35,068 nt of DNA from Bacillota bacterium (GTDB lineage Bacteria > Bacillota > Sulfobacillia > JAJZYS01 > JAJZLH01), in the NCBI GenBank assembly GCA_021850485.1, contig JAJZLY010000019.1:13545-48612 (forward strand), written 5' to 3'. How positions within the stretch are numbered: position 1 is the stretch's first letter; every line of letters starts with the position of its first letter. Positions 4,613 through 31,790 of this stretch are shown piece by piece. The notes beneath the pieces were generated by a model that did not search any database, was not told the origin of the DNA, and was given only the letters and a program-made list of their open reading frames with translations. The position numbers and the translations under genes are program-made.

Positions 4613-5023
4613 ATGAGCGTGCCGGCGGATCTGTTCGAGGCTGCCCTGGAGGCTAGGCGGCGGGCCTACGCGCCATACTCTCACTTCCAGGTTGGAGCGG
4701 CCGTGCGCGACCGCGGCGGAGCCATCACCATCGGCTGCAATGTGGAAAACGCCTCTTATGGGCTTTGCTGCTGTGCGGAACGGGTGGCCCTGTTCGACAT
4801 GGTGGCAGCAGCGCGCAAAGAGCCGGTCGAGATCTGCGTGGTGGCTGACGTCTCCGGGGTGGTCAGCCCCTGTGGAGCCTGTCGACAGGTCATCTACGAA
4901 CTGGCCAGAGATGCGGTGATCTGGCTGTGCAACACGCACGGCGAGAGCCGACAGGTGCTAGCGGCAGATCTCTTGCCATTCCCGTTCACCCTGAACGACC
5001 CCCCTGCTCCGGATCGCCCCTGA
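4613..5023 (+). CDS. cdd: Cytidine deaminase
   Basis: A 136-residue homotetrameric-type zinc deaminase converting (deoxy)cytidine to (deoxy)uridine, the substrate of the phosphorylase upstream. It has YAPYSHFQVGAAV, the substrate motif NVENASYG, the catalytic CAE at Cys54-Glu56 and the second zinc pair in SPCGACRQV (Cys87, Cys90). A strong AAGGAGGG site (4597-4604) precedes ATG 4613 by 8 bases. The gene follows pdp by 18 bp, completing a deoC-pdp-cdd salvage operon that routes pyrimidine deoxynucleosides to free base plus central carbon. It converges with otsA. Confidence 0.95.
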   Translation: MSVPADLFEAALEARRRAYAPYSHFQVGAAVRDRGGAITIGCNVENASYGLCCCAERVALFDMVAAARKEPVEICVVADVSGVVSPCGACRQVIYELARDAVIWLCNTHGESRQVLAADLLPFPFTLNDPPAPDRP

Positions 5024-5058
5024 TTGCGAGCCCCGAGCGGCCTGCGGGTCCCTCGCTC

Positions 5059-5082
5059 CCAGACCGCCGACGGCCGGTCTGG
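5059..5082. terminator. GC hairpin between cdd and otsA
   Basis: A perfect 8-bp inverted repeat, CCAGACCG (5059-5066) and CGGTCTGG (5075-5082), with an 8-base loop, lies between the convergent cdd and otsA genes. No U-tract follows on either side. By position it could serve both transcripts, but function is inferred. Confidence 0.4.
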
Positions 5083-5147
5083 CGCTTGCGGCGCCCACGC
5101 CGTCGACAGGCCGCTGGGCGGCTGGGCCCGGTCCCGCAAGCTGGCCG

Positions 5148-6572
5148 CTAAGCCCCGGTCAGGTCGGCCAGAAAGGCTGCCGCCCAGGCCTCGACGGTGG
5201 CCGTGGCCAGGTGCCGCTGCATTTTTTCGTTTCGGCGCCGGCGCTCTGCCAAGGGCATGCTCAGGGCCGTGGCCAGCGTCGCCGCTACCTGATCCAGGTC
5301 GAACGGGTTGACGATCAGCGCTTCGTCCAATTCGGCCGCTGCCCCCGCCGTCTCACTCAAGATCAACACGCCCTGGCCATCTTCCTGGCTCGCCACGTAC
5401 TCCTTGGCTACCAGGTTCATCCCATCTCGCAGCGGTGTCACTAAGGCTACCTCCGCCATCCGGTACAGTGCGCACAGCAACTCGAACGGCACCGAACGGT
5501 GCAGGTACCAGATCGGCACCCAGCCCAGCGTACCGAACTGGCCGTTGATCTCCCCCACCCGCTCGGCCACATTTCGGCGCAGACTCTCGTATTCGCTCAC
5601 TTCCTGCCGCGACGGCACGGTGACGGCCACCAGCGTCACCTTGCCGTGCCACTCACGATGGCTTTTCAAAAAGCGGCCGTAGGCCTCCAGCCGCCGGGGG
5701 ATGCCCTTGGAGTAGTCCAGGCGATCCAAGGACAACACCAGATGCCGCTCGCCCAGCTGGCGGCGCAGATGCGCCACTTGGCGGCGCACCGCCGGCAGGT
5801 CTCCAGCGGTGGCGAATCTGGCGCTGTCGATACTCATTGGATAGACACCCAAGGTCACCGTGCGGCCGTCCACCACCACCTGACGACCGTTGCCGCCGAC
5901 ACCGAGCAGCCGGTCCAGGCAGTCGGCGAAGTGGCGGCGATCCCCGTCGGTGTGAAACCCGATCACGTCTGCTCCAAGCAGGCCGGCCAGCACCTCTTTG
6001 CGCCAGGGCAGCTGGCGAAACACCTCAAACTCCGGGAAGGGGATGTGCAGGAAAAAGCCGATCCGTTGCTTCGGCCGCTCCCGGCGCAACATCTCCGGTG
6101 CCAGCAGGAGGTGGTAGTCATGGACCCAGATCAGGTCCCCCGCCTTGGCCTGGTGCAGCGTCTGCTCGGTGAACAGTTCGTTACCCTGCTGATAGGCCTG
6201 CCACTGACGCTGGCTGTATACCGGGTACTGTGTGAAATAGTGCGCCAAGGGCCACAGGGCGCGATTGGCAAAGCCCAAGTAGAAGTCGGTCACCAGCCGG
6301 CGGGTCAAGAACACGGGATGAAAGTCCCGCTCGGCCAACTCGTCGATCACCTGCTGGCGTTGATTGGCGCTGAGCAGCTCTGAGGCCAAGCCAGGCCAGC
6401 CCACCCAAGCCCCCGGGTGCTTGACCAGGTAGCTGTGCAAGCCGCTGGCCAAACCGCCGGAACTCTCGATCAGGCCGACACCGGAGCGCTGGTGGCGCAC
6501 CGTAACCGGCAACCGGTTAGAGACCACGATCAATCGGCTCGCCGGTGCCACCTCCCGCTGGGAAAAATGCAC
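5148..6572 (-). CDS. otsA: Trehalose-6-phosphate synthase (GT20 family)
   Basis: A 474-residue glycosyltransferase that joins glucose from a nucleotide sugar to glucose 6-phosphate. The start RLIVVSNRLPVTV with ESSGGLASGL, the central WVHDYHLLLAPEMLR and GFFLHIPFPEFEVFRQLPWR, and the C-terminal MNLVAKEYVASQ and IVNPFDLDQVAATL segments all match family GT20 over the usual length. The start is GTG 6572, with AGGAG 8 bases upstream. No trehalose-6-phosphate phosphatase domain or otsB gene is present nearby, so dephosphorylation must be encoded elsewhere. A glucosylglycerol-phosphate synthase is a less likely alternative in the same family. Confidence 0.9.
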   Translation of the reverse strand: MHFSQREVAPASRLIVVSNRLPVTVRHQRSGVGLIESSGGLASGLHSYLVKHPGAWVGWPGLASELLSANQRQQVIDELAERDFHPVFLTRRLVTDFYLGFANRALWPLAHYFTQYPVYSQRQWQAYQQGNELFTEQTLHQAKAGDLIWVHDYHLLLAPEMLRRERPKQRIGFFLHIPFPEFEVFRQLPWRKEVLAGLLGADVIGFHTDGDRRHFADCLDRLLGVGGNGRQVVVDGRTVTLGVYPMSIDSARFATAGDLPAVRRQVAHLRRQLGERHLVLSLDRLDYSKGIPRRLEAYGRFLKSHREWHGKVTLVAVTVPSRQEVSEYESLRRNVAERVGEINGQFGTLGWVPIWYLHRSVPFELLCALYRMAEVALVTPLRDGMNLVAKEYVASQEDGQGVLILSETAGAAAELDEALIVNPFDLDQVAATLATALSMPLAERRRRNEKMQRHLATATVEAWAAAFLADLTGA

Positions 6573-7203: not shown

Positions 7204-7769
7204 GCGGCCGCTGGTGGCTGTGGCTGTTCCCCAGAGCTTGGCGAGAGCGCTATGGCGTCGAACTGGCGGATCTGCTCCACGCACGCCCGCCAAACGGGCG
7301 AGACGTTTTCGATCTACTGCGCTCGGCCGTCTGGTTGAGATTCCAAGCGGCACCGGTGCAAGTTCGCACTGCGGGGGGTCTTTCAATGTCGCTGGTGCGC
7401 CGGCCGCTGGCTTGGATCAGCTTGCTTCTCGTCTTGCCGTCTGTCGTCTTTTTGCTGGCGGCGGCTGCCCGCTTGATGCAGCCTGCCACCCACCAGCCTG
7501 CCCATAGCGCCACACTGCTGGTCGGCTGGGTGTTCACCTGGCCCCATTGGGCCACCGGGTTGATGTTCTGGCTGCTCCCCTTGGTCTCGCTAGCAGGCGG
7601 TCTCCTCTGTGCGCGCACGGAAGTGCGCAGCCATCTTGAGCTGCGCTCGGATCTCCACTCTCTAGCAGGCATCGCCCGCCGCCACGGCGCCTTGCTCACC
7701 GCCACGGTCGCCGTCGTGCTCAGTCTCCTGATCATCGTGTTCTTCGCTGCCCATGCCATCGCCGGGTGA
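7200..7769 (+). CDS. PadR-associated integral membrane protein, unknown function
   Basis: A 189-residue protein. The N-terminus WWLWLFPRAWRERYGVELADLL is a short amphipathic module often seen in membrane proteins encoded directly after PadR regulators (consensus around P-x-x-W-R-x-R-Y-G-x-E). It is followed by three or four predicted transmembrane helices, at about residues 69-90, 102-138 (probably two helices) and 163-186. Function is unknown. The start GTG 7200 overlaps the PadR stop, and the end overlaps the next gene by 17 bp, so the three genes are one transcript. It may be the effector or target of the PadR regulator; this is inference. Confidence 0.7.
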   Translation: MSGRWWLWLFPRAWRERYGVELADLLHARPPNGRDVFDLLRSAVWLRFQAAPVQVRTAGGLSMSLVRRPLAWISLLLVLPSVVFLLAAAARLMQPATHQPAHSATLLVGWVFTWPHWATGLMFWLLPLVSLAGGLLCARTEVRSHLELRSDLHSLAGIARRHGALLTATVAVVLSLLIIVFFAAHAIAG

Positions 7770-8607
7770 TCCTCTCGCCCACCTCCCCGCCGACATCCGC
7801 CACCAGCTGGCGCGGCTGACCACGGCGTGCCAGGCGCACTTCGCTGGCCGTCTGGTCGGCCTGTACCTGCACGGATCCGCTGCCAGCGGCGGCTGGCAGG
7901 TATCGGCGAGTGATCTCGATCTATTGCTCATCGTCTCGTTCTGGCGCAGTGCCGACCGTCCGGTGATGACGGCGCTGTGTTTGGATCTGTCGGCGCACCC
8001 AGGTCACTTCGAACTGCACGTGTTGACCCAGCGCGATCTGAGGCCCTGGGGGCACCCAGCCGCCTATCGCTTTCACTACAGTGAGACGTGGCGGGGCCGC
8101 ATTTCCGCCGGTGCCCCGGCTCCGGGCACTGATGTCGGGGTGGGCGCCAGAGACCGCGAGATCGCCGCCCATCTGACCACGGCCCGAGCTCACGGCCTGA
8201 TCCTCTGCGGTCGGCCGGTCACCCGAGCGATTCCGGTTGTGCCACGTCTGCATTTTATTGACAGCCTGTTCTGCGACCTCCAAGACAGCGCTATGACCTC
8301 GCCGGGTGAGGGGTACGAGGTCTTGAATCTGTGCCGCAGTTGGGCGTTTTTGACTCATGGCCAGCTTCTCTCCAAAGAGGAAGGCGGACGCTGGGCCCTC
8401 TCCCGACTGCCAGCCGACCAGGCGGCCACCGTCTACCAGGCGCTGGTGGCACACCGGGATGGAGGGCCGGAAGATCCGAGTCGGCTGATCGCCTTTCGCT
8501 GTCTGCTGTGGCCGACCCTGTGGGCCAGTGCGCACCCCGCCGAACGTGCGGTGATCCGCCGCTGGTGGCCGGCCACGGTCCCCGACCTCTCCCGTTCGGG
8601 GCACTGA
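7753..8607 (+). CDS. AadA-like aminoglycoside nucleotidyltransferase family protein
   Basis: A 284-residue protein with the nucleotidyltransferase signature GLYLHGSAASGGW followed by ASDLDLLLIV, giving the GS motif and the paired D-x-D metal ligands. The C-terminal half (residues about 140-270) is helical and matches in position the DUF4111-type domain of ANT(3'')/ANT(9) adenylyltransferases. Family members add AMP to streptomycin or spectinomycin. Whether this divergent protein confers resistance cannot be told. It shares a transcript with PadR and the membrane protein, which suggests regulated, possibly drug- or stress-inducible expression. Start ATG 7753 lies within the preceding gene. Confidence 0.75.
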   Translation: MPSPGDPLAHLPADIRHQLARLTTACQAHFAGRLVGLYLHGSAASGGWQVSASDLDLLLIVSFWRSADRPVMTALCLDLSAHPGHFELHVLTQRDLRPWGHPAAYRFHYSETWRGRISAGAPAPGTDVGVGARDREIAAHLTTARAHGLILCGRPVTRAIPVVPRLHFIDSLFCDLQDSAMTSPGEGYEVLNLCRSWAFLTHGQLLSKEEGGRWALSRLPADQAATVYQALVAHRDGGPEDPSRLIAFRCLLWPTLWASAHPAERAVIRRWWPATVPDLSRSGH

Positions 8608-8673: not shown

Positions 8674-8706
8674 CCATCTGACTCCCGCCCGAGCCGCTGG
8701 TATGCG

Positions 8707-8712
8707 TACAAT
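8707..8712 (+). promoter_or_regulatory. Candidate -10 element of the polyphosphate operon
   Basis: TACAAT (8707-8712) is a 5/6 match to the -10 consensus, about 60 bp before the probable start of the first TMPK-like gene. No good -35 hexamer is visible at 16-18 bp. If real, it excludes the upstream ATG at 8702 as a start. Confidence 0.35.
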
Positions 8713-8770
8713 GGATTTGGCAAGCGCTCCCATTTGCCCCCAGCGCGATGCCATGAGGGGGAGTCCCAGG

Positions 8771-9463
8771 GTGCCAACCCATCTCCAAGCACGCTCTGGC
8801 GGCGGGCGGCTGATCGCGGTCGAGGGCTGCGACGGCTCCGGCAAGAGCACTCAGTTGCGATTGCTGTATCGGTACCTGCTGCGCAGCGGGTTACCGGTTC
8901 ACCTCAGCTCCTGGAACTCCAGTCCGGCCGTGCATCCGATCAGCCAGAGCGGCAAGCGCACCAAACGACTGTTTGGTCTCTCTTATGCCCTGTTCAACGC
9001 CGCCGACTTCGCCGACCGCTATGAACGCGAAATCTTGCCCAGATTAGGCCTCGGCCAGATCGTTCTGTGCGATCGCTACGTCGGAACCGCACTGGCCAGG
9101 GATGGTGCGCGCGGTCTAGACCCAGCCTGGACCAGGGCGCTGTACGACTATGCCCGCCCTGCAGACCTCACCTTCTTGTTTCGCCTGCCTCCCTCGGTGG
9201 CGGCCTACCGGGTGCTGGCCGGGCGCAAGCGATTTGGCTATTACGAAGCAGGCATGGATCTGGGTCTCAGTTCCGACCCCCTGGCCAGCTTCTTGCAGTT
9301 CCAGGGCGAGGTGCTCAAGCGCTACCTGCAATTGGCCCCGGGACTGGACTACCGGCTGATCGATGCCACTGCCGGTCTGAGGGCACAACAGTCCGAGATC
9401 CGCCGCCAGACCCTGGAACTGCTCGCAGTCAGCCAGCCGGCGACTGCGGCAGCACTGGTCTGA
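8771..9463 (+). CDS. Thymidylate-kinase-like P-loop kinase, intact Walker A
   Basis: A 230-residue P-loop phosphotransferase. It has RLIAVEGCDGSGKST (Walker A lysine at residue 25), the TMPK-type DRY motif in VLCDRYVGTALARDGARGLD, and a C-terminal FLQFQGEVLKRYLQL helix as in thymidylate kinases. The lid region (RKRFGYYEAGMDLGLSSDP) is unusual. I choose GTG 8771, behind GAGGGGGA (8755-8762); in-frame ATGs at 8702 and 8753 are possible but lack a good ribosome binding site. Context with a Ppx phosphatase, HD protein and PPK2, rather than DNA-replication genes, argues that it is not the housekeeping tmk and may act on another nucleotide or on polyphosphate. The stop overlaps the next start by one base. 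Confidence 0.8.
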   Translation: MPTHLQARSGGGRLIAVEGCDGSGKSTQLRLLYRYLLRSGLPVHLSSWNSSPAVHPISQSGKRTKRLFGLSYALFNAADFADRYEREILPRLGLGQIVLCDRYVGTALARDGARGLDPAWTRALYDYARPADLTFLFRLPPSVAAYRVLAGRKRFGYYEAGMDLGLSSDPLASFLQFQGEVLKRYLQLAPGLDYRLIDATAGLRAQQSEIRRQTLELLAVSQPATAAALV

Positions 9464-10125
9464 TGAAGGGTGTGCTGATCGCTCTGGAGGGCGCAGACGG
9501 GGCTGGCTGCACAGATCAGGCCCGCCGCCTCGGCGACTGGCTGGTCTCTGCCGGCCACCAGGTGGTACCTTGCCGGATCAAAGGGTCAGAGTTGATGCGC
9601 CGGCCGCTGCAGACCCTGCAACGACGGGCGGACTTGTCCGACCGGGCTCTGTTCTTGCTGTACGCAGCCGATCTGGCCGACCTCTATCGCCACCAGATTG
9701 CGCCCGCCTTGGATCTGGGTCAGGTCGTGCTGTGCGACCGCTACCTGCTGACGCCGCTGGTCCGGGCTGAACTGCGCGGCATCGACCACGCCTGGGCCCA
9801 AGGCGCGCTTTCGTTTTTGCCCGCACCGACCCTGACCGTATTGCTGTGCGCTCCAGCCAGCCACCGCCTGACCCGCCTTCTCAACCACCGCCGCTTCTTG
9901 CAGCCGCGTGAGACTGGCTGGCCAATGCGCCCGGGCAGCCCCCTACTCGCCCAGGCGTTGCGCTATCAGCGTCAGTTGGCCCGCCAGTACGCCTTGCGCA
10001 CGGATCCCGAGCAGGTGCCAAGGGTCAATACCGGCCAGCACGCAGATCGGGCGCAAGGTGAGTTGCAGCGTCTTGTTTCGGCGGTTTTGCCCGCGCCGTC
10101 GGCAGCCGCCGAGTCTGCCCTGTGA
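9463..10125 (+). CDS. Thymidylate-kinase-like paralogue with degenerate P-loop
   Basis: A 220-residue protein similar in layout to its upstream neighbour: VLIALEGADGAGCTDQ at the start, VVLCDRYLLTPLVRAELRGID in the middle and a closing helix with YQRQLARQYAL. The Walker A position normally held by Lys is Cys16 (TGC at 9508-9510), followed by Thr, so canonical phosphate binding is lost or changed, while the DRY motif is kept. The start ATG 9463 overlaps the preceding stop (TGATG); the same frame is open from 9067 but that part is a shadow of the first kinase. A regulatory or scaffolding partner of the intact kinase is the simplest reading. The stop overlaps the HD gene as GTGA. Confidence 0.75.
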   Translation: MKGVLIALEGADGAGCTDQARRLGDWLVSAGHQVVPCRIKGSELMRRPLQTLQRRADLSDRALFLLYAADLADLYRHQIAPALDLGQVVLCDRYLLTPLVRAELRGIDHAWAQGALSFLPAPTLTVLLCAPASHRLTRLLNHRRFLQPRETGWPMRPGSPLLAQALRYQRQLARQYALRTDPEQVPRVNTGQHADRAQGELQRLVSAVLPAPSAAAESAL

Positions 10126-10715
10126 GCATCCAGCTCGGATTGGCACCGACCATCGAACGGGCGGTGGCCGATCTTGCTGCCAAGTACCCCACCGACCCGC
10201 CGCACGCGGCGCATGTGGCGGACCAGGCAGTCTTGCTGTTCGACCTGTTGGCGCCTTGGCACCAGTTGATGGCACCGGACCGGGCCCTGCTCCACCACGG
10301 CGGGTTGCTCCACGACAGCGGCATCTGGATCAATGCCAAAGGCCATCACCGGCACAGCGCCTACATCGTGCGCTCGGACCGCCTTTTGGCGGGCTATCCG
10401 CCGGCCGAGCGCGAGATGCTGGCCAGGCTGGTGCAAAACCACCGCAAGCATCCCCGCCCTGCTCCCCAGGACTGGCCACTGCAACGCCGCCTGGCCCTGG
10501 TCTGGCTCAGCGCCCTGTTGCGGACAGCGGACGGACTGGACGTCTGCCACGACCAGCAGGCTCACGTTGCGGCCGCCTATCCGGATGCCCACGGCTACGT
10601 TGTGGCGGTGCGTGGCGTCGACGCCGGCCGCTTTGACCAGAGACTGGCGAGAAAGTCTAAGCTGCTGGCCACCTTGCTGGGCGGAGACCTGCGCTTTTCG
10701 GCCGATCCTTCGTGA
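10122..10715 (+). CDS. Stand-alone HD-domain phosphohydrolase, Ppx C-terminal-type
   Basis: A 197-residue HD protein that resembles the C-terminal domain of Ppx/GppA phosphatases. The first ligand region is PPHAAHVADQAVLLFDLL (His28/His31), then LLHHGGLLHDSGI with the His64-Asp65 pair, GHHRHSAYIV (His75-His78), and a late LLRTADGLD. All metal-binding positions expected of an active HD site appear present. The start GTG 10122 overlaps the previous stop and its own stop overlaps the ppx start, each by four bases, so it should be made together with Ppx. The substrate is unknown; a (p)ppGpp- or nucleotide-directed hydrolase is a guess. Confidence 0.8.
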   Translation: MSIQLGLAPTIERAVADLAAKYPTDPPHAAHVADQAVLLFDLLAPWHQLMAPDRALLHHGGLLHDSGIWINAKGHHRHSAYIVRSDRLLAGYPPAEREMLARLVQNHRKHPRPAPQDWPLQRRLALVWLSALLRTADGLDVCHDQQAHVAAAYPDAHGYVVAVRGVDAGRFDQRLARKSKLLATLLGGDLRFSADPS

Positions 10716-12223
10716 GCCGGCTCAATCGTCTCGCCGTGCTCGACCTGGGCTCGAACTCGGTGCGCATGCTGGTGGTAGAGGCCAACGCCGACGGGCAGTG
10801 GCGGGTGATCGACGAAGCTCGAGCCCTGTTGCGCCTGGGCGACTGCCTGATGCAGCGGGGCGTTCTGGCCCCGCTGTTGCCCACGGCCATCTGGGTGGTT
10901 TGCTCGTGGGTGCAACGAGCCCGGCAGGCGGGGGTCGATCAGATCGTGGCCGTCGCCACCGCCGCCCTGCGGGCGGCCCCGGACGGCGCCGCCTTCACCC
11001 GGAGCGTGGAGCAGGCCAGTGGCATTCGGATCAGGATCGTGGACGGACAAGAAGAGGCCAGCCTGGGCTTTTTGGGGGCGATGCAGACCCTGGACATCGC
11101 CGATGGCAATCTGGTCGACCTGGGTGGAGCGAGCACCGAACTCACATCGTTTGCCAGCCGCCAGCGGCTGCGGTCGGTGAGCATGGCGCTGGGCTCGGTC
11201 ACGTTGGGTCGGCGCTTTTTCACTTCGGACCCGCCCACCGCGACTCAGGTGGCATCTGCGGAGAAGACGATCCGTAAGGAGCTCTCAGCAGTCTTGCCCG
11301 ATCCGGCGGCGGGTCTGCCGCTGGTAGCGGTGGGGGGGAGTTTTCGCTCAATCGCCAAGATGCAGCTGCGGGCCTCGGGCTACCCGCTGACCACGCTGCA
11401 CAACTACCAGCTTTCGCCGAGCGTCATCGACGACTTCTGCCTCAAGCTTGGGCGAATGACAGCCAGCCAGCGCCGTCAGGTGCCCGGACTGGCGGCCCAC
11501 CGAGCAGAGACGGTGCTCGGTGCCCTGGCCCTGGCCCAGGGCGTTTGCAAGTGGCTGAAGCCGTCTGTGATCGTGATCAGCGGCACTGGGTTGCGCGAGG
11601 GCGTGATGTTCGAACAGCTGCACCAGCGTCCACCTTCGGCTGGCTCTGACCTGCTTGAGATCAGTGTGGACAATTTGCTCTTTCAGCTGGCAGCTGAGCC
11701 AGACCCTGCCCTCTTGCACCTGGCCGGGTGCCTGGCCCATGCGCTCTCTCCCCTGCTACCCAAAGACTTCATGCCGCTGATCGTGGCTTGTGCCAAACTG
11801 CGGGCGCTGGGCCAGCGGGTCAACTTTTACGATCGCCATACGCACACGTTTTACCTGATCATTCACAGCCGGCTGTTCGGACTGAGCCACGGCCAACAGG
11901 TGGTGTTGGCCGCTGCGGCCGGGTACGAGGGGCCGCATCGGCTCACGCAGGTACTGCGGCCATACGCCCAGCTGATCGGGCCCGAAGGCAGCTTACTGGC
12001 AGCCCGGCTCGGGCTGGTGGTGGCCTTTGCGGAAGCGCTGCTTCGCCAGCATCCCGCCCATCATCTGGAGGTCGGCGCTCAGATTTCGGCCAAGGAGATC
12101 TCCTTGACGATCCAGGGCTCCAGCCCTGCTCCAACGATCCCCTACGACGAGTTGAGCCGGCTGAGCGGGCACTTCGCCAAGGTGTTCGGCCGCAAGCTGC
12201 GCACCCACTTCAGCGCCGTCTGA
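10712..12223 (+). CDS. ppx: Ppx/GppA-family exopolyphosphatase or pppGpp phosphohydrolase
   Basis: A 503-residue ASKHA-fold phosphatase. N-terminal motifs are intact: LAVLDLGSNSVRMLVVE (phosphate 1 loop), VATAALRAAPDG, IRIVDGQEEASLGFLGA with the catalytic Glu region, LVDLGGASTEL (phosphate 2) and AVGGSFRSIAKM. The family removes terminal phosphate from polyphosphate or pppGpp. The C-terminal 200 residues align in layout with the HD-like domain, but the segment that normally reads ALLHDIG is here ACAKLRALG, so the HD pair is missing; the downstream YDRHTHTFYLIIHSRLFGLSH part is still recognisable. The start GTG 10712 overlaps the HD gene. It converges on a PPK2 gene. Confidence 0.88.
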   Translation: MSRLNRLAVLDLGSNSVRMLVVEANADGQWRVIDEARALLRLGDCLMQRGVLAPLLPTAIWVVCSWVQRARQAGVDQIVAVATAALRAAPDGAAFTRSVEQASGIRIRIVDGQEEASLGFLGAMQTLDIADGNLVDLGGASTELTSFASRQRLRSVSMALGSVTLGRRFFTSDPPTATQVASAEKTIRKELSAVLPDPAAGLPLVAVGGSFRSIAKMQLRASGYPLTTLHNYQLSPSVIDDFCLKLGRMTASQRRQVPGLAAHRAETVLGALALAQGVCKWLKPSVIVISGTGLREGVMFEQLHQRPPSAGSDLLEISVDNLLFQLAAEPDPALLHLAGCLAHALSPLLPKDFMPLIVACAKLRALGQRVNFYDRHTHTFYLIIHSRLFGLSHGQQVVLAAAAGYEGPHRLTQVLRPYAQLIGPEGSLLAARLGLVVAFAEALLRQHPAHHLEVGAQISAKEISLTIQGSSPAPTIPYDELSRLSGHFAKVFGRKLRTHFSAV

Positions 12224-12387: not shown

Positions 12388-13218
12388 CTATCCGCCTTGG
12401 CCTGCCCCTGGGCTTGCCTTAGCCGCCAGCACCGCGTCTTCAGCTGGCAGCGGCCAGTCCATTTTCAGCTCTTTCAGGGTGTGAACCAGCACCTTGGCCA
12501 CCAGCAGGTTGCGGTACCAGCGGTGGTCGGAGGGCACCACGTACCATGGGCAATCCTTGGTGCTGGTCGCCTCGATCGCCTCCTCGTAGGCCCGCTGGTA
12601 GTGGTCCCACAGCTTGGTTTCCTGAAAGTCCGCAGCCGACATCTTCCAGTTCTTGCGCCGGTCTTGCCTGCGCTCCTCGAAGCGCTTGGCCTGCTCCTCC
12701 CGGGACAGGTGCAAAAAGAATTTGCGCACGATCACGCCTGCCTCGTCCAACTCCCGCTCGAAGTGGCGGATGGCCCGCAGACGCTCTTTCGCCACCTGGT
12801 CTGAGATCAGGTGGTGAACCCGCACCACCAGCACATCCTCGTAGTGCGAACGGTTGAAGATGCCGATGGCGCCTTTGGCTGGCACTCGTTGATGCACCCG
12901 CCACAGAAAGTCATGGGCCAGCTCCTGCTCAGTCGGTTGCTTGAACGGGCTGACCACCGTTCCCTGGGGCGAGAGGCCCTGCATGACGTGGCGGATGGTG
13001 CCGTCCTTGCCCGCCGAATCCATGCCCTGCAACACGATCAGCAGCGCTCTCTTGCCGTTGGCGTAGAGCAGGTCATGCAACTCGGAAAGGGCCTGCACGT
13101 CTCGGATCAGTGCCGTCTTGGCCCTGGCCTCACTGAGACCGTGCGTCTCCTTCGGGTCGATCTTATCAAGATGCACCTTGCCGTCGACCGGGACGAGCAG
13201 GTGCGCGTCTTTAGCCAC
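12388..13218 (-). CDS. ppk2: Polyphosphate kinase 2 (polyphosphate:nucleotide phosphotransferase)
   Basis: A 276-residue PPK2 that moves phosphate between polyphosphate and nucleoside mono- or diphosphates. Walker A is LIVLQGMDSAGKDGTIRHVM (Lys71), followed by GLSPQGTVVSPFKQPT, FNRSHYEDVLVVRVH with the Walker B region, the lid motif DRRKNWKM, and VPSDHRWYRNLLVA near the end. The one-domain length and these motifs fit the class that phosphorylates AMP and/or ADP; the class cannot be fixed by eye. The start GTG 13218 follows GGGGTGA. It faces the ppx operon tail to tail, placing polyphosphate-using and -degrading enzymes together. Confidence 0.92.
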   Translation of the reverse strand: MAKDAHLLVPVDGKVHLDKIDPKETHGLSEARAKTALIRDVQALSELHDLLYANGKRALLIVLQGMDSAGKDGTIRHVMQGLSPQGTVVSPFKQPTEQELAHDFLWRVHQRVPAKGAIGIFNRSHYEDVLVVRVHHLISDQVAKERLRAIRHFERELDEAGVIVRKFFLHLSREEQAKRFEERRQDRRKNWKMSAADFQETKLWDHYQRAYEEAIEATSTKDCPWYVVPSDHRWYRNLLVAKVLVHTLKELKMDWPLPAEDAVLAAKASPGAGQGG

Positions 13219-13606
13219 CGCAAGTCACCCCATCTCTGACCAAGCATTGGCCCGCCAGTCCGAGGGCCATGGCGTGAAACGCCTATTTACCCTTATTCCA
13301 CCAGCTCCCGGCCGATCCTCTTCTCCTCAGGCGGCGGGCCGGGTTCGTCAGCCTGGTTCCGATCTCGCCGGCCCCGTGCTGGATGGCTAAGTTATTGCCG
13401 ATTGTGACGAACTTGTTGCAGGAATCCTCGCCCCGAACACGCATTCTCAAAGACACTCACCTGGGTCTGCGGGCGGCCTATTGGTGTACGCGTTTCACCC
13501 GCTGGCGTTGGCTCAATCAGTACTGCATCGCAGCGAAAGGGGGAGTCCGACACCTGAGCCTTGGGCCCGGATCCTGGCCCGATGATTGCGGGAGGTGGCT
13601 TCTCGG
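13219..13606. other. Intergenic region upstream of the substrate-binding protein gene
   Basis: This 388-bp gap lies between divergent ppk2 and the solute-binding protein gene. It has a short inverted repeat, GGCGT-gaa-ACGCC (13271-13283), and GGGAGG (13590-13595), the ribosome binding site of the downstream gene. I see no coding sequence and no convincing -35/-10 pair. Confidence 0.4.
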
Positions 13607-15436
13607 ATGCGGATGAGACGATGGATCCTCGGTACCATGGTGGCATCTTCTTTGGCCTTCGTGGTGGCTGGCTGTGGCTCTTCAACGCCCACGGCAACGC
13701 CAACCAATCCGCTGGCGACGTCCAGCACGGCTGTGGTGGCGGAGCCCCCAGGACTGGTGTTGAACGGCTTCGCCCCCATTCTGTCGGTGAGCGTGTACAG
13801 CACCAACAACTCGCAAAACAACTTCCTGATGTACAAGCCGCTGATCTTCATCACCAAGCAGGACACCATTGACTTCTCCCGCTCACTGGCCTCGTCGATC
13901 GCCGTTTCCAACAACGACCAGACCTATACCATTCAGCTGAACCCGAAGTGGAAGTGGTCCAACGGCCAGCCGGTGACCTCGGCCGACGTGGTATTTTCCG
14001 CCGAGACCATGGCCGCTTCTTGTGCCACCACCACGCCGCCGCCGCCGATGACCTACGGCGGTTGCGGAATCGGCGGACTGGGCCCGATCGGCCAGCCCGG
14101 TGACAGTGCTGGCATCGGCTGGCAGTCGGTCACCGCCAGCGGCCCCGACACCGTGGTGATCACCACCACCAAGCCGGTGAACCCGGTCTGGTTCGAGCAC
14201 AATGCGCTGGGCCAGTTGATGCCGTTCCCGGCCGCGACGTGGGAGGCGGCAGCGGGCGTGCCGGCGGGAGCCTCCTTGGCCACCGCCACCACCGACGTTT
14301 TGACCTTGATGAACAACGTGATGAATCAGCCCACCAACGCCGCCTTCCAGGTGGTGGACGGCCCCTACAAGTTCTACAAGATGGTGCCCCAGGACTACTG
14401 GGAATACGTCCCCAACACGGCCTATGACGGCCACATGGCCACCATCAAGCACCTCACCTACCAGTACTTCGCCACGGCGGCGTCCGAGTTCTCCGCCCTC
14501 AAGAAGGGCACCGTCGGCGCTGGCTTGATCACGGCCTACAACCTGCCGCAAAAGAACATCCCCGGCTACAACTTCGTGTTGCCGCCGCCGCCGTTCGCCA
14601 TCAACTACATCGCCATCAACCTGAGCCCGCTGGCGCCGGGCGGCATCGGTCTGGCCTTCCAGGACCTGAAGGTCCGCCAGGCCCTGCAATACGGCATCAA
14701 TGAGAACGCCTTCATCAAGATCCTGGGCGGCGGCTACGGCACGCCGCAGTACACCCCGATGCCGGTCGCCGGTACCACCAGCGTCTTCAACGCCAAGGCG
14801 ATGCCGACCCCGTACGCATTCAACCCGGCCAAGGGCAAGGCCCTGTTGCTGGCGGACGGCTGGTCCTTGCAAAACGGGGTCATGACCAAGACGATTAACG
14901 GCAAGTCCGTGGCGCTTCAGTTCAACTTCGACTACAGCACCGGCAGCCCGGAGGCTGAGAACTACGCTGTCTATCAGCAGTCGCAGTGGGCTCTGGAAGG
15001 GATCAAGATGACGCCGGTGCCGATGCCGTTCGCCACACAGCTCACGCTCAACGACGGAGCCGGTGCCACCGTGGCCGCCAGCTGGGCCATGAACTGGTGG
15101 AGCGGCTGGTACTACGAGCCTGACTACTACCCGACCGGCGGTGCGCTGTTCGCCCCCGGCGCTTACTTCAACCTGGGTGACTTCTCCGACCCAACCCTGA
15201 CCCAGGACATCAACGCCACCTACGCCCCGGCCACACCTGCCCAGGCCTACGCCGCAATGACCGCCTACGCCGCCCGGGCGCAGGTGGTGCTGCCGGACCT
15301 GTTCACGGGCAGCTTCGACCAGCTGCCGAACCTCGGCGGCTTCTTCGAAAACGCCACCTACCTGCACGGCGTTGCCTCCAACTACAACACGGTGCAGGCT
15401 CTGAACTTCCCCAACTACTGGACCATCACGCCGTAG
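13607..15436 (+). CDS. ABC transporter substrate-binding lipoprotein, family 5 (peptide/nickel type)
   Basis: A 609-residue secreted lipoprotein. The signal peptide (RMRRWILGTMVASSLAFVVAGC) ends in a VAGC lipobox, followed by a Ser/Thr/Pro linker. The mature domain has the SBP_bac_5 hallmarks: YTIQLNPKWKWSNGQPVTSADVVFS, DGPYKFYKM, VRQALQYGINENAFIKIL, and a late DYYPTGGALF segment. It would bind oligopeptides or another solute outside the cell and deliver it to an ABC permease, but no permease or ATPase gene is in the window. GGGAGG (13590-13595) precedes ATG 13607. Lysine is encoded only by AAG in the parts I read, a bias typical of high expression. A hairpin terminator follows directly. Confidence 0.9.
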   Translation: MRMRRWILGTMVASSLAFVVAGCGSSTPTATPTNPLATSSTAVVAEPPGLVLNGFAPILSVSVYSTNNSQNNFLMYKPLIFITKQDTIDFSRSLASSIAVSNNDQTYTIQLNPKWKWSNGQPVTSADVVFSAETMAASCATTTPPPPMTYGGCGIGGLGPIGQPGDSAGIGWQSVTASGPDTVVITTTKPVNPVWFEHNALGQLMPFPAATWEAAAGVPAGASLATATTDVLTLMNNVMNQPTNAAFQVVDGPYKFYKMVPQDYWEYVPNTAYDGHMATIKHLTYQYFATAASEFSALKKGTVGAGLITAYNLPQKNIPGYNFVLPPPPFAINYIAINLSPLAPGGIGLAFQDLKVRQALQYGINENAFIKILGGGYGTPQYTPMPVAGTTSVFNAKAMPTPYAFNPAKGKALLLADGWSLQNGVMTKTINGKSVALQFNFDYSTGSPEAENYAVYQQSQWALEGIKMTPVPMPFATQLTLNDGAGATVAASWAMNWWSGWYYEPDYYPTGGALFAPGAYFNLGDFSDPTLTQDINATYAPATPAQAYAAMTAYAARAQVVLPDLFTGSFDQLPNLGGFFENATYLHGVASNYNTVQALNFPNYWTITP

Positions 15437-15724: not shown

Positions 15725-18004
15725 TTAGCTCTGGCTGTGCTCGCCACCTGGTATCAGCACCACCTGGCGAGCAGCCGCCATACCAGGACCCAGCGCAAAC
15801 CTCTGACCCGCCAGATAGGGACTGAGCAGATCGTCATAGTGAGGGGACAGGCAGTGGCCGGACTGGCCCGTCAGGTGGATGGCGGTGGAGCTGGCTCGGT
15901 CGCCCAGGTCGAGCACCTGCCGATAGCTGGGCATGACCAGTACCCGTCTTGGCCAGGGCAAAGTGGGATCCAAGGAGATGGCAGCCTGCAACACCGTGGT
16001 GCTGTCGCCGGGCATGGGCAGGGGACGCCGTCCGAACAGCGGCCGGGTCAGCGCCACCTCGGCCAGCGGGTGAAAGGGATGGGCCTGATGGCTCCGGCCC
16101 CATTGCCAGCGGGCCAGGTCTGACCCAAAGGTCTCCCGCCCCAGGCGGTCGGCACGGGCCACGGCGCCGGTCAGGTCCAACTCGGCCCAGTGCTCGACCA
16201 GCCATGGCACCATCCGCTCTCCGGCCAGCGACCACCAGCGCTCCGGGAAGGGATGAGCATCCGGCAGACCAGGTGGGACATCGCTGAAAAAGGGTTGCAA
16301 TAGGGTCCGCCGCAGCCCATCTGGAACCGCCTCCGCCGCTACCAGGTAACAGATCGTCGGCGCCACCGACTCTACCCTGAGATGTCCATCAAAATTCATC
16401 AGACTCTCCTGCCACCCGCTTGGGAGCTGCGGGTGGTCTGCGAGCCGGGTCGCGAACTGGTGCAGCGACGTACTGTAGACGTCCATCTGGATCGCCCCGA
16501 AGCTCTCTTGGTCATGTTGCTCCGACTGGGTCAGCAGCGAACGGATCCGACTGGCCCGGGCACCGGCCGCAAAGCTGCCAGGGACTTGGACCGGATGGTC
16601 TTTGCCCACCACCGGATTGTTGGCGGTGACGATTACGCCGCTGGGCGGGTCGAACAGGCGCGGCGTATCCGCCATCGGCACCGTCCCCGTCCAACTGGCG
16701 GCCCGCCGATTTCCATCTTGCACCCCGGCTGCCCATGCCGCCGGGCGGGTCACCAACTGTCCGGCCATCAGATAGCCGATGTGCCCCGCTCGATCTGCGT
16801 AGACCACGTTCTGGGCCGGCACCAGCCAATCAGCCATGGCGGCCTGAAAGCTTGCCCAGTCGTCGGCCAGGTTCAGACGGAGCACGCTGGAGAGCACCGG
16901 CAGGGGCTGAAACGCCGTCCAGGCCAGCGCCACCTTGCTGTCACCGTCCTGATGGATCACCGGCCCCCAGATGGAGTCCCAGCAGGTCAACACCTGATCG
17001 GCCCGACCCCGGATCCGGATCAGCTCGTCACGGCGAGAAAGCGTCGTTGGCTGGCCATCGAGCAGATAGGTCTGGCCGTCTTCTTCCATCTTGATCCGGT
17101 ACAGATCCTGGACGTCTGGATTGACATTGGTCAGGCCCCAGGCGATGGACTGATTTTGGCCGATAATCACCCCTGGCGCACCGGGCAACGTGACGCCGGC
17201 CACCGAGAAGGCGCCGCCTTCGAGCCACATCTCGTACCAGATCGACGGCAGTTGGGGTGCCAGGTGTGGATCATTGGCCAGCAGCGGGCTGTTGCTCTTG
17301 GTGTGTGCCCCGGACACCACCCAGTTGTTGGAGCCGACACTAGTCGCCCCCAGGCTTCCTGCGGGTCCGGTGTGCGGAATGATGGTCTCGTGCAGCTCGC
17401 CCAGGCCAAACAGCAGCTCCAAGGCAGCTGGCTCGTCTTTCAGGTGCTCGACCGCCCACTTGGTCTGCCACACCGTGTTCAGTGTCCAGGCTAGCTGGTA
17501 GCTCACCCCCAGCGTGTCGATCTCGGTCCAGGGTCGGGGACGGCTCTTGAGCAGCCGATATTCCGGGGATAAGGGCTGCCCCTGCCAGGCCTGGTTCACG
17601 CCCTGCACGTAAGCCTGAAGCCACTGCCGATGCTCGTCCGAAAGCACAGCCAATGACGAGCTGGCGTGGCGACGAAAGTCCAATTGGCGTAAGAACAGAT
17701 CGTAGGCAAGGGCACCCTCACCCAGAAGTTCGGCCAGACTCCCTTCGGCGAAGCGGCGGGCCAAATCCATCTGGAAGCCACGGTCCCGCCCGTGCAAGAA
17801 GCCCTGCGCCAAAAACGCATCCTGCGCTGACTGAGCCTGGACGTGAACCACGCCATGGGCGTCAAAGCCGAGCTGCACCGGGGCCTCCAGGCCGCTCACG
17901 AGCGCCTCGGGATCCAGCGGCGCCGTCTCCCTGGCCCCGCCAGTGAGCTTGGCCAACATGCCGGCCAGGCTATGGCCCGGTAGCCTCCAGGTGCGCTCAC
18001 GCAT
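15725..18004 (-). CDS. Penicillin acylase family (Ntn-hydrolase, S45) protein
   Basis: A 759-residue amidase precursor. In this family the chain cuts itself to expose an N-terminal nucleophile; here it is Ser225, in SVGSNNWVVSG. Other hallmarks are QGFLHGRDRGFQMDLARR in the alpha part, LLANDPHLAPQLPSIWYEMWL, GAPGVIIGQNQSIAWGLTNVNPDVQDLY, and a late PVVG/HPF-rich segment. Relatives hydrolyse penicillins, acyl-homoserine lactones or other N-acyl amides. I choose ATG 18004 because GGAGGAGG (18012-18019) precedes it by 7 bases; the upstream ATG 18025 would lie before that site. No signal peptide is visible, unlike most characterised periplasmic members. Confidence 0.88.
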   Translation of the reverse strand: MRERTWRLPGHSLAGMLAKLTGGARETAPLDPEALVSGLEAPVQLGFDAHGVVHVQAQSAQDAFLAQGFLHGRDRGFQMDLARRFAEGSLAELLGEGALAYDLFLRQLDFRRHASSSLAVLSDEHRQWLQAYVQGVNQAWQGQPLSPEYRLLKSRPRPWTEIDTLGVSYQLAWTLNTVWQTKWAVEHLKDEPAALELLFGLGELHETIIPHTGPAGSLGATSVGSNNWVVSGAHTKSNSPLLANDPHLAPQLPSIWYEMWLEGGAFSVAGVTLPGAPGVIIGQNQSIAWGLTNVNPDVQDLYRIKMEEDGQTYLLDGQPTTLSRRDELIRIRGRADQVLTCWDSIWGPVIHQDGDSKVALAWTAFQPLPVLSSVLRLNLADDWASFQAAMADWLVPAQNVVYADRAGHIGYLMAGQLVTRPAAWAAGVQDGNRRAASWTGTVPMADTPRLFDPPSGVIVTANNPVVGKDHPVQVPGSFAAGARASRIRSLLTQSEQHDQESFGAIQMDVYSTSLHQFATRLADHPQLPSGWQESLMNFDGHLRVESVAPTICYLVAAEAVPDGLRRTLLQPFFSDVPPGLPDAHPFPERWWSLAGERMVPWLVEHWAELDLTGAVARADRLGRETFGSDLARWQWGRSHQAHPFHPLAEVALTRPLFGRRPLPMPGDSTTVLQAAISLDPTLPWPRRVLVMPSYRQVLDLGDRASSTAIHLTGQSGHCLSPHYDDLLSPYLAGQRFALGPGMAAARQVVLIPGGEHSQS

Positions 18005-18290
18005 CGACCGTCCTCCTCCATGCATAGACGACTGACGGCTCGGAGATGGCGATGGCGCGGCGCTCAGCCCCCGACTCCTTATGGGTCGCGAAAGCCTGGC
18101 CCGTGCGGGGCACTAAGCGGCCACCCGTCGGTGCGGCTTGCCCACCGTGCTTGAGTCTTCCCCAACGCTCCGCAGATCGCCTGTCAGCCAAGGTGGATCA
18201 ACGCTTGGTCGCGAGCCCGCGGCGCCTACTTTGTCTGCTCGGGCTGCTGGCGGCTCGGGGTGCGAGCGGCCCGTCAGTCGCTGGCGCCGG

Positions 18291-30578: not shown

Positions 30579-31790
30579 TTGCAGGGTGCGACAGTCGGGG
30601 TGTTAAATCGCTCTTCCTGCAGAGGGAGGAGAGAGATCCCACGATGGAAGCTCACAGACGAAGATGCGCAGGCTCTGGTGCTGGCCGGGTTGAAGGGGGA
30701 GCTGTGCCGCCGATACGCGGTCGGCGAGGTGACCTACTACAAGTTGCGCGATCGGTTCATCGCAGCCGGCATGGAAGGGCTGTACAGCAGCGGCCACACC
30801 AAGTACGTGAAGGCGATGGAGGACCGAATCCGGGACCTGGAGAGGGCGCTGGGCCGCAAGTCGCTTGAGGTGGAGTTTATAAAAAACGTCCGAGGTCCTC
30901 AAACGATAGCAGCGGACGAGCTTCGAGAGCTGGTCTCTGGCTTCGCGGCCCAGGGCTTAGCCCGAACCCAGGCGGCGGAACTGCTGGGCATCCCCCGGCA
31001 ACGCCTCTATCCCAGGGATGCTCGTGTGCACGCTCCTCCCCCGGACAGCGGCCGCGATGCCGAGGTGGTGGCCGTCCTGCGGGAACTCTTAGCCGAGGAG
31101 CCCAGACGCCGACACTTCGGATATCGGCGGTGGCAGGCCGTCCTTGGCCGTCGGAAGGGCATCGTGGTCAACCACAAGCGGATGAGACGCCTGCTGCATG
31201 TGCTGGGCTGGACTCAGCAGCGCGTACCTAAGGGGCACCGAGTTGGCGTCGCACGGCCCGGCAATCCCTCCGGCCCCAACCAGGTCTGGCAGATCGACAT
31301 GACCAAGGTCCCGGTCGAAGGCACAGGCTGGCTCCACCACATCGCCGTCGTCGACATGTTCACCCGGGAGGTGGTCGGCCACTTCGAGGGCATGCGGGCG
31401 AGAGCCGTGGAGTGGCGGCAGGCGTTAGACCAAGCGGTGCTGGATCGGTTTCCCGACGGCAGCCGGGGCCAGGGCCTGACCATCCAGGCCGACAACGGCT
31501 GCCATCCAACCGCCAGAGCGTTTCGCAACGCACTGCACACCTTGGGTATCCAGCTTGCCTTCATCGACGTCTGCGAGCCCAAGCAGAATGCCATCGTCGA
31601 GCGCTACTTCCGCACACTGAAGGAAGAGGAGATCTGGCCGACCATCTACGAGACCGTCGGCCAGGCCAGGGACGGCATCGCCGACTTCGTCCGCTTCTAC
31701 AACCAGGTCCGTGAGCACAGCTCTCTGGGCTACATCCCGCCGACCGACTTCTTCACGGCTGCTCGGGCACGAAACCAAGACGCGGCCTGA
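30579..31790 (+). CDS. IS3-family transposase (OrfA and OrfB fused), probably defective at the N-terminus
   Basis: A single frame of up to 403 codons joins the usual OrfA (HTH plus coiled coil EDRIRDLERALGRKSLEVEFIK) and OrfB (rve integrase domain). The DDE residues are in VWQIDMTKV, IQADNGC and NAIVERYFRTLKEEE, with SLGYIPPTDFF at the end. The frame has no good start: TTG 30579 lies in the inverted repeat, and the best ribosome binding site (GGGAGGAGAG, about 30622-30631) leads to ATG 30644, which is out of frame by one base. The helix before LCRRYAV also appears about four residues short compared with related transposases. An A6C run (30881-30887), where IS3 elements shift frame, lies at the fusion point. 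Confidence 0.75.
   Translation: MQGATVGVLNRSSCRGRREIPRWKLTDEDAQALVLAGLKGELCRRYAVGEVTYYKLRDRFIAAGMEGLYSSGHTKYVKAMEDRIRDLERALGRKSLEVEFIKNVRGPQTIAADELRELVSGFAAQGLARTQAAELLGIPRQRLYPRDARVHAPPPDSGRDAEVVAVLRELLAEEPRRRHFGYRRWQAVLGRRKGIVVNHKRMRRLLHVLGWTQQRVPKGHRVGVARPGNPSGPNQVWQIDMTKVPVEGTGWLHHIAVVDMFTREVVGHFEGMRARAVEWRQALDQAVLDRFPDGSRGQGLTIQADNGCHPTARAFRNALHTLGIQLAFIDVCEPKQNAIVERYFRTLKEEEIWPTIYETVGQARDGIADFVRFYNQVREHSSLGYIPPTDFFTAARARNQDAA

Follow-up and report, generated by a model that had tools for sequence, protein, structure and literature searches.

A free HD protein matching the C-terminal half of Ppx/GppA is encoded beside a Ppx lacking the HD metal set in a conserved TMK1-TMK2-HD-Ppx operon

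The locus described herein raises the question of why a bacterium would encode a small, free-standing HD protein directly beside a Ppx/GppA phosphatase whose own HD-like domain lacks the metal-binding residues. The window, by which we mean the whole stretch of DNA analyzed, spans 35,068 nucleotides of a Bacillota genome of 1.6 Mb (G000), whose named relatives are MAGs of uncultured Bacillota, and includes the following genes.

8702..9463, + strand: TMK1, a thymidylate-kinase-like P-loop kinase with an intact Walker A motif (GCDGSGKST); PF02223, 63 bits
9463..10125, + strand: TMK2, a paralogue of TMK1 whose Walker A lysine is replaced (GADGAGCTD); PF02223, 58 bits
10122..10715, + strand: the free HD gene (GTG start, 197 aa), corresponding to Ppx/GppA domains III-IV with a complete metal set
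10712..12223, + strand: Ppx/GppA phosphatase (GTG start, 503 aa) with an intact ASKHA core and a domain III-IV region without the HD metal set
12388..13218, − strand: a PPK2-type polyphosphate kinase (PF03976, 249 bits), convergent to the operon

The four genes from TMK1 to Ppx overlap by 1-4 bases each. TMK2 overlaps TMK1 at TGATG, and a GTGA overlap occurs at both ends of the free HD gene. The initial annotation had placed this gene directly upstream of Ppx with an overlap, which is borne out by the 4 bases (GTGA) shared between 10122-10715 and 10712-12223.

As judged from its sequence and predicted structure, the free HD protein corresponds to the whole C-terminal half (domains III-IV) of a Ppx/GppA protein. 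The Pfam model PF21447 (Ppx-GppA_III) matches it at 79.3 bits (cut-off 27.3), and PF01966 reaches 16.9 bits, below its cut-off of 22. When the predicted structure (mean pLDDT 94) is compared with the PDB, the top 17 entries are all PPX/GppA proteins with Z scores of 16-20, compared to at most 10.9 for any other HD protein, and these matches cover domain III together with the C-terminal strands that form domain IV. Because the matches are restricted to PPX/GppA and both domains are covered, the protein is best viewed as an entire Ppx C-terminal half rather than as a generic HD protein. Membership in an unrelated HD family is ruled out by the PF21447 score and the exclusively PPX/GppA top structures, and the earlier proposal that the protein derives from a Ppx C terminus stands.

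The same full-length fold is formed by domains III-IV of the Escherichia coli Ppx/GppA (1u6z, 6pbz) and Deinococcus radiodurans PPX (8jgo) proteins (Z 19-20), and residues 321-508 of the latter match residues 9-194 of the free HD protein. The likeness extends to the GHHRHSAYIV and HR motifs. However, the domains are fused in E. coli and D. radiodurans, whereas the free HD protein is the product of its own gene. Moreover, it carries a full H-HD-H-H-H-D set, whereas D. radiodurans PPX has LHEAG in the aligned region.

The metal set of the free HD protein consists of H28, H64-D65, H75, H78, H107, and D137. Ten residues are invariant in 27 free HD relatives (H28, H64, D65, H75, H78, H107, R108, R134, D137, and D140), and these include the H64-D65, H75, and H78 residues that had been named previously as well as the H...HD...D pattern of the HD superfamily (H28, H64-D65, D137). 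The previous choice of H31 as the first metal histidine was mistaken, as H31 is kept in 15 of the 27 relatives, whereas H28 is kept in all 27 and is the first ligand. Every ligand is also retained in the 26 free HD proteins included in our site table.

In contrast, the HD-like domain of the neighboring Ppx lacks the HD pair, as had been noted. At the positions aligned to H28, H64, D65, H107, and D137 it has P, R, A, E, and E, respectively, so domain III of this protein does not present the H...HD...D pattern. Indeed, the set is absent from 10 of 10 full-length Ppx proteins of the closer group to which the window protein belongs, the latter included. The 503-aa protein nevertheless has the ASKHA core, catalytic Glu, and GG.STE phosphate loop of Ppx/GppA. 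Among partner Ppx proteins, core residues E115, G138, G139, and S141 are invariant, and E143 is present in 27/28. PF02541 matches at 161 bits, compared to only 19.2 bits (below cut-off) for PF21447.

Structure prediction, carried out for both proteins, yields a Ppx-type fold for the HD protein and a Ppx C terminus that keeps its fold around an empty site. The Ppx model (pLDDT 94.5) superimposes end to end on its closest structural match, the PPX/GppA protein of Helicobacter pylori (6pc0; 469 residues, rmsd 2.3, Z 39), whose domain III aligns there with AGELASMG and likewise has no HD pair. We considered whether the metal site had been relocated within the Ppx C terminus, and rejected this because no conserved His/Asp set was found there. 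Mean identity among partner Ppx proteins of the window's group is 60% in the C-terminal half and 60% in the core. Given that the two regions are equally conserved, the C-terminal half is constrained for something other than metal binding. Domain III of the partner Ppx is probably now only structural.

The initial annotation interpreted this complementarity as a division of labor. The idea is plausible. By raw count, the HD pair is lost in 25 of 28 partner Ppx proteins and in 9 of 47 others. Stated conversely, an H-D/E at positions 64-65 is kept in 3/28 partner proteins versus 38/47 of those without a free partner, and with stricter site sets the values are 1/28 versus 24/47 and 0/28 versus 8/47. 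However, the tree holds about five independent changes of the Ppx site, and a phylogenetic pair test with two site definitions yields just 5 independent pairs, with which a sign test cannot reach significance. Because independent events are few, the raw counts overstate the link, and we do not claim them as proof. Furthermore, three partner Ppx proteins (L097, L098, and L099) still carry H-D, and domain III metals have also been lost at loci with no free HD neighbor (L152, L155-L158, L167, L174, and L180). Loss of the site and presence of the free gene are thus not tightly coupled. With these restrictions, the comparison suggests that two normally fused activities may be divided between neighboring genes.

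The association of the two genes is near-obligate. Among 61 relatives, the 13 genomes with a free HD gene are also the 13 that carry Ppx. Of 151 genomes sampled from the class, 29 encode Ppx; the free HD gene accompanies it in 28 and occurs in none of the 122 genomes that lack Ppx (Fisher 1e-29, a value not corrected for kinship). TMK1 is present in 28 of the Ppx-carrying genomes. The sole Ppx genome in which no free HD gene was seen is G104, where the contig ends inside Ppx. In its locus (L081, 2667-5348), Ppx follows TMK1-TMK2 without an intervening HD gene, and given where the contig ends, an HD gene downstream is possible. Different families of the class share the pairing of HD and Ppx, so it is not a product of chance. 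The usual gene order is TMK1-TMK2-HD-Ppx, and family f10 instead has Ppx-TMK1-TMK2-HD.

Beyond the class, a free HD gene lies beside Ppx in three sampled Bacillota, with the TMK pair present in one (G347) and absent at the other two (G209 and G293). Nearly all PF21447 matches in 199 Acidobacteriota genomes are fused within long Ppx frames, with domain III largely intact, and several of these Ppx proteins adjoin the same TMK1-TMK2 pair. The Acidobacteriota arrangement is the fused counterpart of the split HD and Ppx genes. The conserved operon TMK1-TMK2-HD-Ppx is a larger finding than the HD/Ppx pair, and we found no description of it in open-licence papers on Ppx with HD or thymidylate kinase. 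Of the 13 relatives' neighborhoods, several of them truncated at the end of a contig, 6 have a PPK2 gene past Ppx and on the other strand. Overall, TMK1-TMK2-HD-Ppx looks like a polyphosphate/nucleotide-phosphate module.

Our preferred explanation, to which we assign a probability of roughly 0.55, is that the free HD protein is an old split-off Ppx C-terminal half, a putative metal-dependent phosphohydrolase, that works with the metal-less Ppx in such a module. The ASKHA core of Ppx would cut polyphosphate, and the HD protein would provide in trans a further hydrolytic activity, one that may be built into domain III itself in other Ppx proteins. The HD protein would act together with Ppx, perhaps while bound to it, and both would operate alongside the TMK1-TMK2 pair and PPK2. 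Homology, the contrast between the metal sites, the overlap of the genes, and their co-occurrence are established by the data above, and activity, substrate, and complex formation are inferred. The locus also offers a practical advantage. The role of the HD-like half of Ppx/GppA is hard to tell apart from that of the phosphatase core because the two are fused, but here the half with intact metal ligands has its own gene, so that it can be assayed or deleted without the other.

Nucleotidase activity is common among HD proteins, and in this class the HD gene is found together with TMK genes. One possibility, which we regard as unlikely but deserving of serious attention, is therefore that the free HD protein hydrolyzes nucleotides in the service of TMK1-TMK2, for example by removing surplus or wrong nucleotides, and that it is mechanistically unrelated to Ppx. 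The shared operon would then reflect phosphate metabolism alone. The f10 arrangement agrees with this possibility, because there the HD gene comes after TMK2, with Ppx on the far side of the kinases. However, Ppx at L097 and L098 has the free HD gene as its direct neighbor, with no TMK in the stretch examined, class genomes that lack Ppx also lack the free HD gene, and the HD fold is specific to Ppx/GppA, domain IV included.

It is also conceivable, albeit rather improbable, that the free HD protein serves as a subunit with a structural or regulatory role, one that pairs with Ppx via the domain III-IV surface and controls the access of polyphosphate, with a metal that is structural or senses phosphate. 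Retention of the entire domain III-IV module and the overlap of the HD and Ppx genes would be expected of such a subunit. The ten invariant catalytic-type residues weigh against it, since their conservation across divergent families points to catalysis more than to structure.

The preferred explanation also holds that the split is old. In domain III trees, built from short alignments of 136-148 columns, the 26 free proteins cluster together, on the side of intact domain III sequences from other Ppx proteins and apart from their operon partners. Support for this group is 55, and rises to 85 when the metal columns are removed and the rows are thinned. Four free HD proteins (L083, L090, L093, and L099) were removed from the domain tree by a filter, but are in alignment A3. 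Forcing the free proteins and partner Ppx proteins into one clade is rejected by the AU test, for which three rows that were long or odd and another 15 that were near-duplicates had been dropped, with P values of 0.006 and, for a narrower set, 0.02. Because the free proteins cluster apart from domain III of the neighboring Ppx, the split is old, and the free HD protein would have become a separate gene long ago. The duplication proposed by the initial annotation thus survives in part, in that the protein comes from a Ppx C terminus, but it is not a copy of the C terminus of the adjacent Ppx. A lineage-local duplication of the Ppx C terminus is likewise rejected by these trees. A recent duplication of the same Ppx's C terminus followed by metal loss in the parent would account for the shared domain family, the adjacent genes, and the complementary metal sites, but is very improbable given the 20% identity between the two window domains and their separation in trees with and without the metal columns (AU P values as above).

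It is reasonable to ask what the two kinases contribute. The Walker A lysine is present in 34 of 34 TMK1 proteins and lost in all 35 readable TMK2 proteins, in which it is replaced by R (29), C (3, the residue of the window protein being Cys), G (2), or T (1). TMK1 carries Walker A and DRY motifs. Both proteins fall below the equivalog cut-off (83.25 bits) of TIGR00041 for dTMP kinase, with TMK1 at 51.9 bits and TMK2 at 55.4 bits. By far their nearest solved relative is a "probable thymidylate kinase" of Sulfolobus tokodaii (2plr), which matches TMK1 at 1.6e-41 (versus 4e-15 for ordinary dTMP kinases) and TMK2 at 1.2e-21. Unlike that protein, the kinases here are a paralogue pair, one member of which lacks the Walker A lysine, and their genes overlap with HD and Ppx. 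A housekeeping dTMP kinase role is unlikely for either protein, as the canonical Tmk of the genome is encoded at another locus (C19, 137 bits). Tandem TMK-like genes such as those at 8702-10125 are linked to Ppx in both Bacillota and Acidobacteriota.

Several published systems bear on parts of this arrangement. Class II PPK2 proteins such as Pseudomonas aeruginosa PPK2C pair active and inactive P-loop polyphosphate kinase domains (PMC8776046), although in one chain and within the PPK2 family, whereas TMK1 and TMK2 are separate proteins of the thymidylate kinase family. For Sulfolobales, a figure legend in PMC10892726 places PPX and dTMP kinase in one CHAD neighborhood. PMC13318637 cites Hofmann et al. 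2026 for a distinct family of polyphosphate kinases from Crenarchaeota.

PPK1 was not detected in any of the 151 class genomes by a search with one of its domains (PF02503), which did recover the positive controls. The crenarchaeal polyphosphate kinase of Hofmann et al. is said to be a thymidylate-kinase-like protein, which we take as a lead only. The operon points to the thymidylate-kinase-like pair as candidates for polyphosphate synthesis or use where no PPK1 is detected. We speculate that the operon might encode a self-contained, PPK1-less polyphosphate cycle, in which TMK1/TMK2 would be a heteromeric polyphosphate kinase with TMK2 as the noncatalytic half, Ppx would be the exopolyphosphatase, and the HD protein, split off from a Ppx, would be a second metal-dependent hydrolase. 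We consider this cycle doubtful. If it were true, active and dead paralogues would be paired twice in one operon.

Other genes were observed in the window and in related loci. Upstream of the operon, at 7753-8607, lies a nucleotidyltransferase-like gene whose product ends in an AadA C-terminal domain (PF13427, 57 bits); the gene is also found in the same-genus loci L030 and L031. A second Ppx at L100 (G427, 4745-6325) appears to be divided between two reading frames (192 and 333 aa), perhaps reflecting a frameshift or a pseudogene. Elsewhere in the window, a family 5 solute-binding protein gene (13586-15436) adjoins a gene for a penicillin amidase family protein (15725-18025, − strand; PF01804, 594 bits), and a transposase-like gene with an integrase core (rve) is present at 30579-31790.
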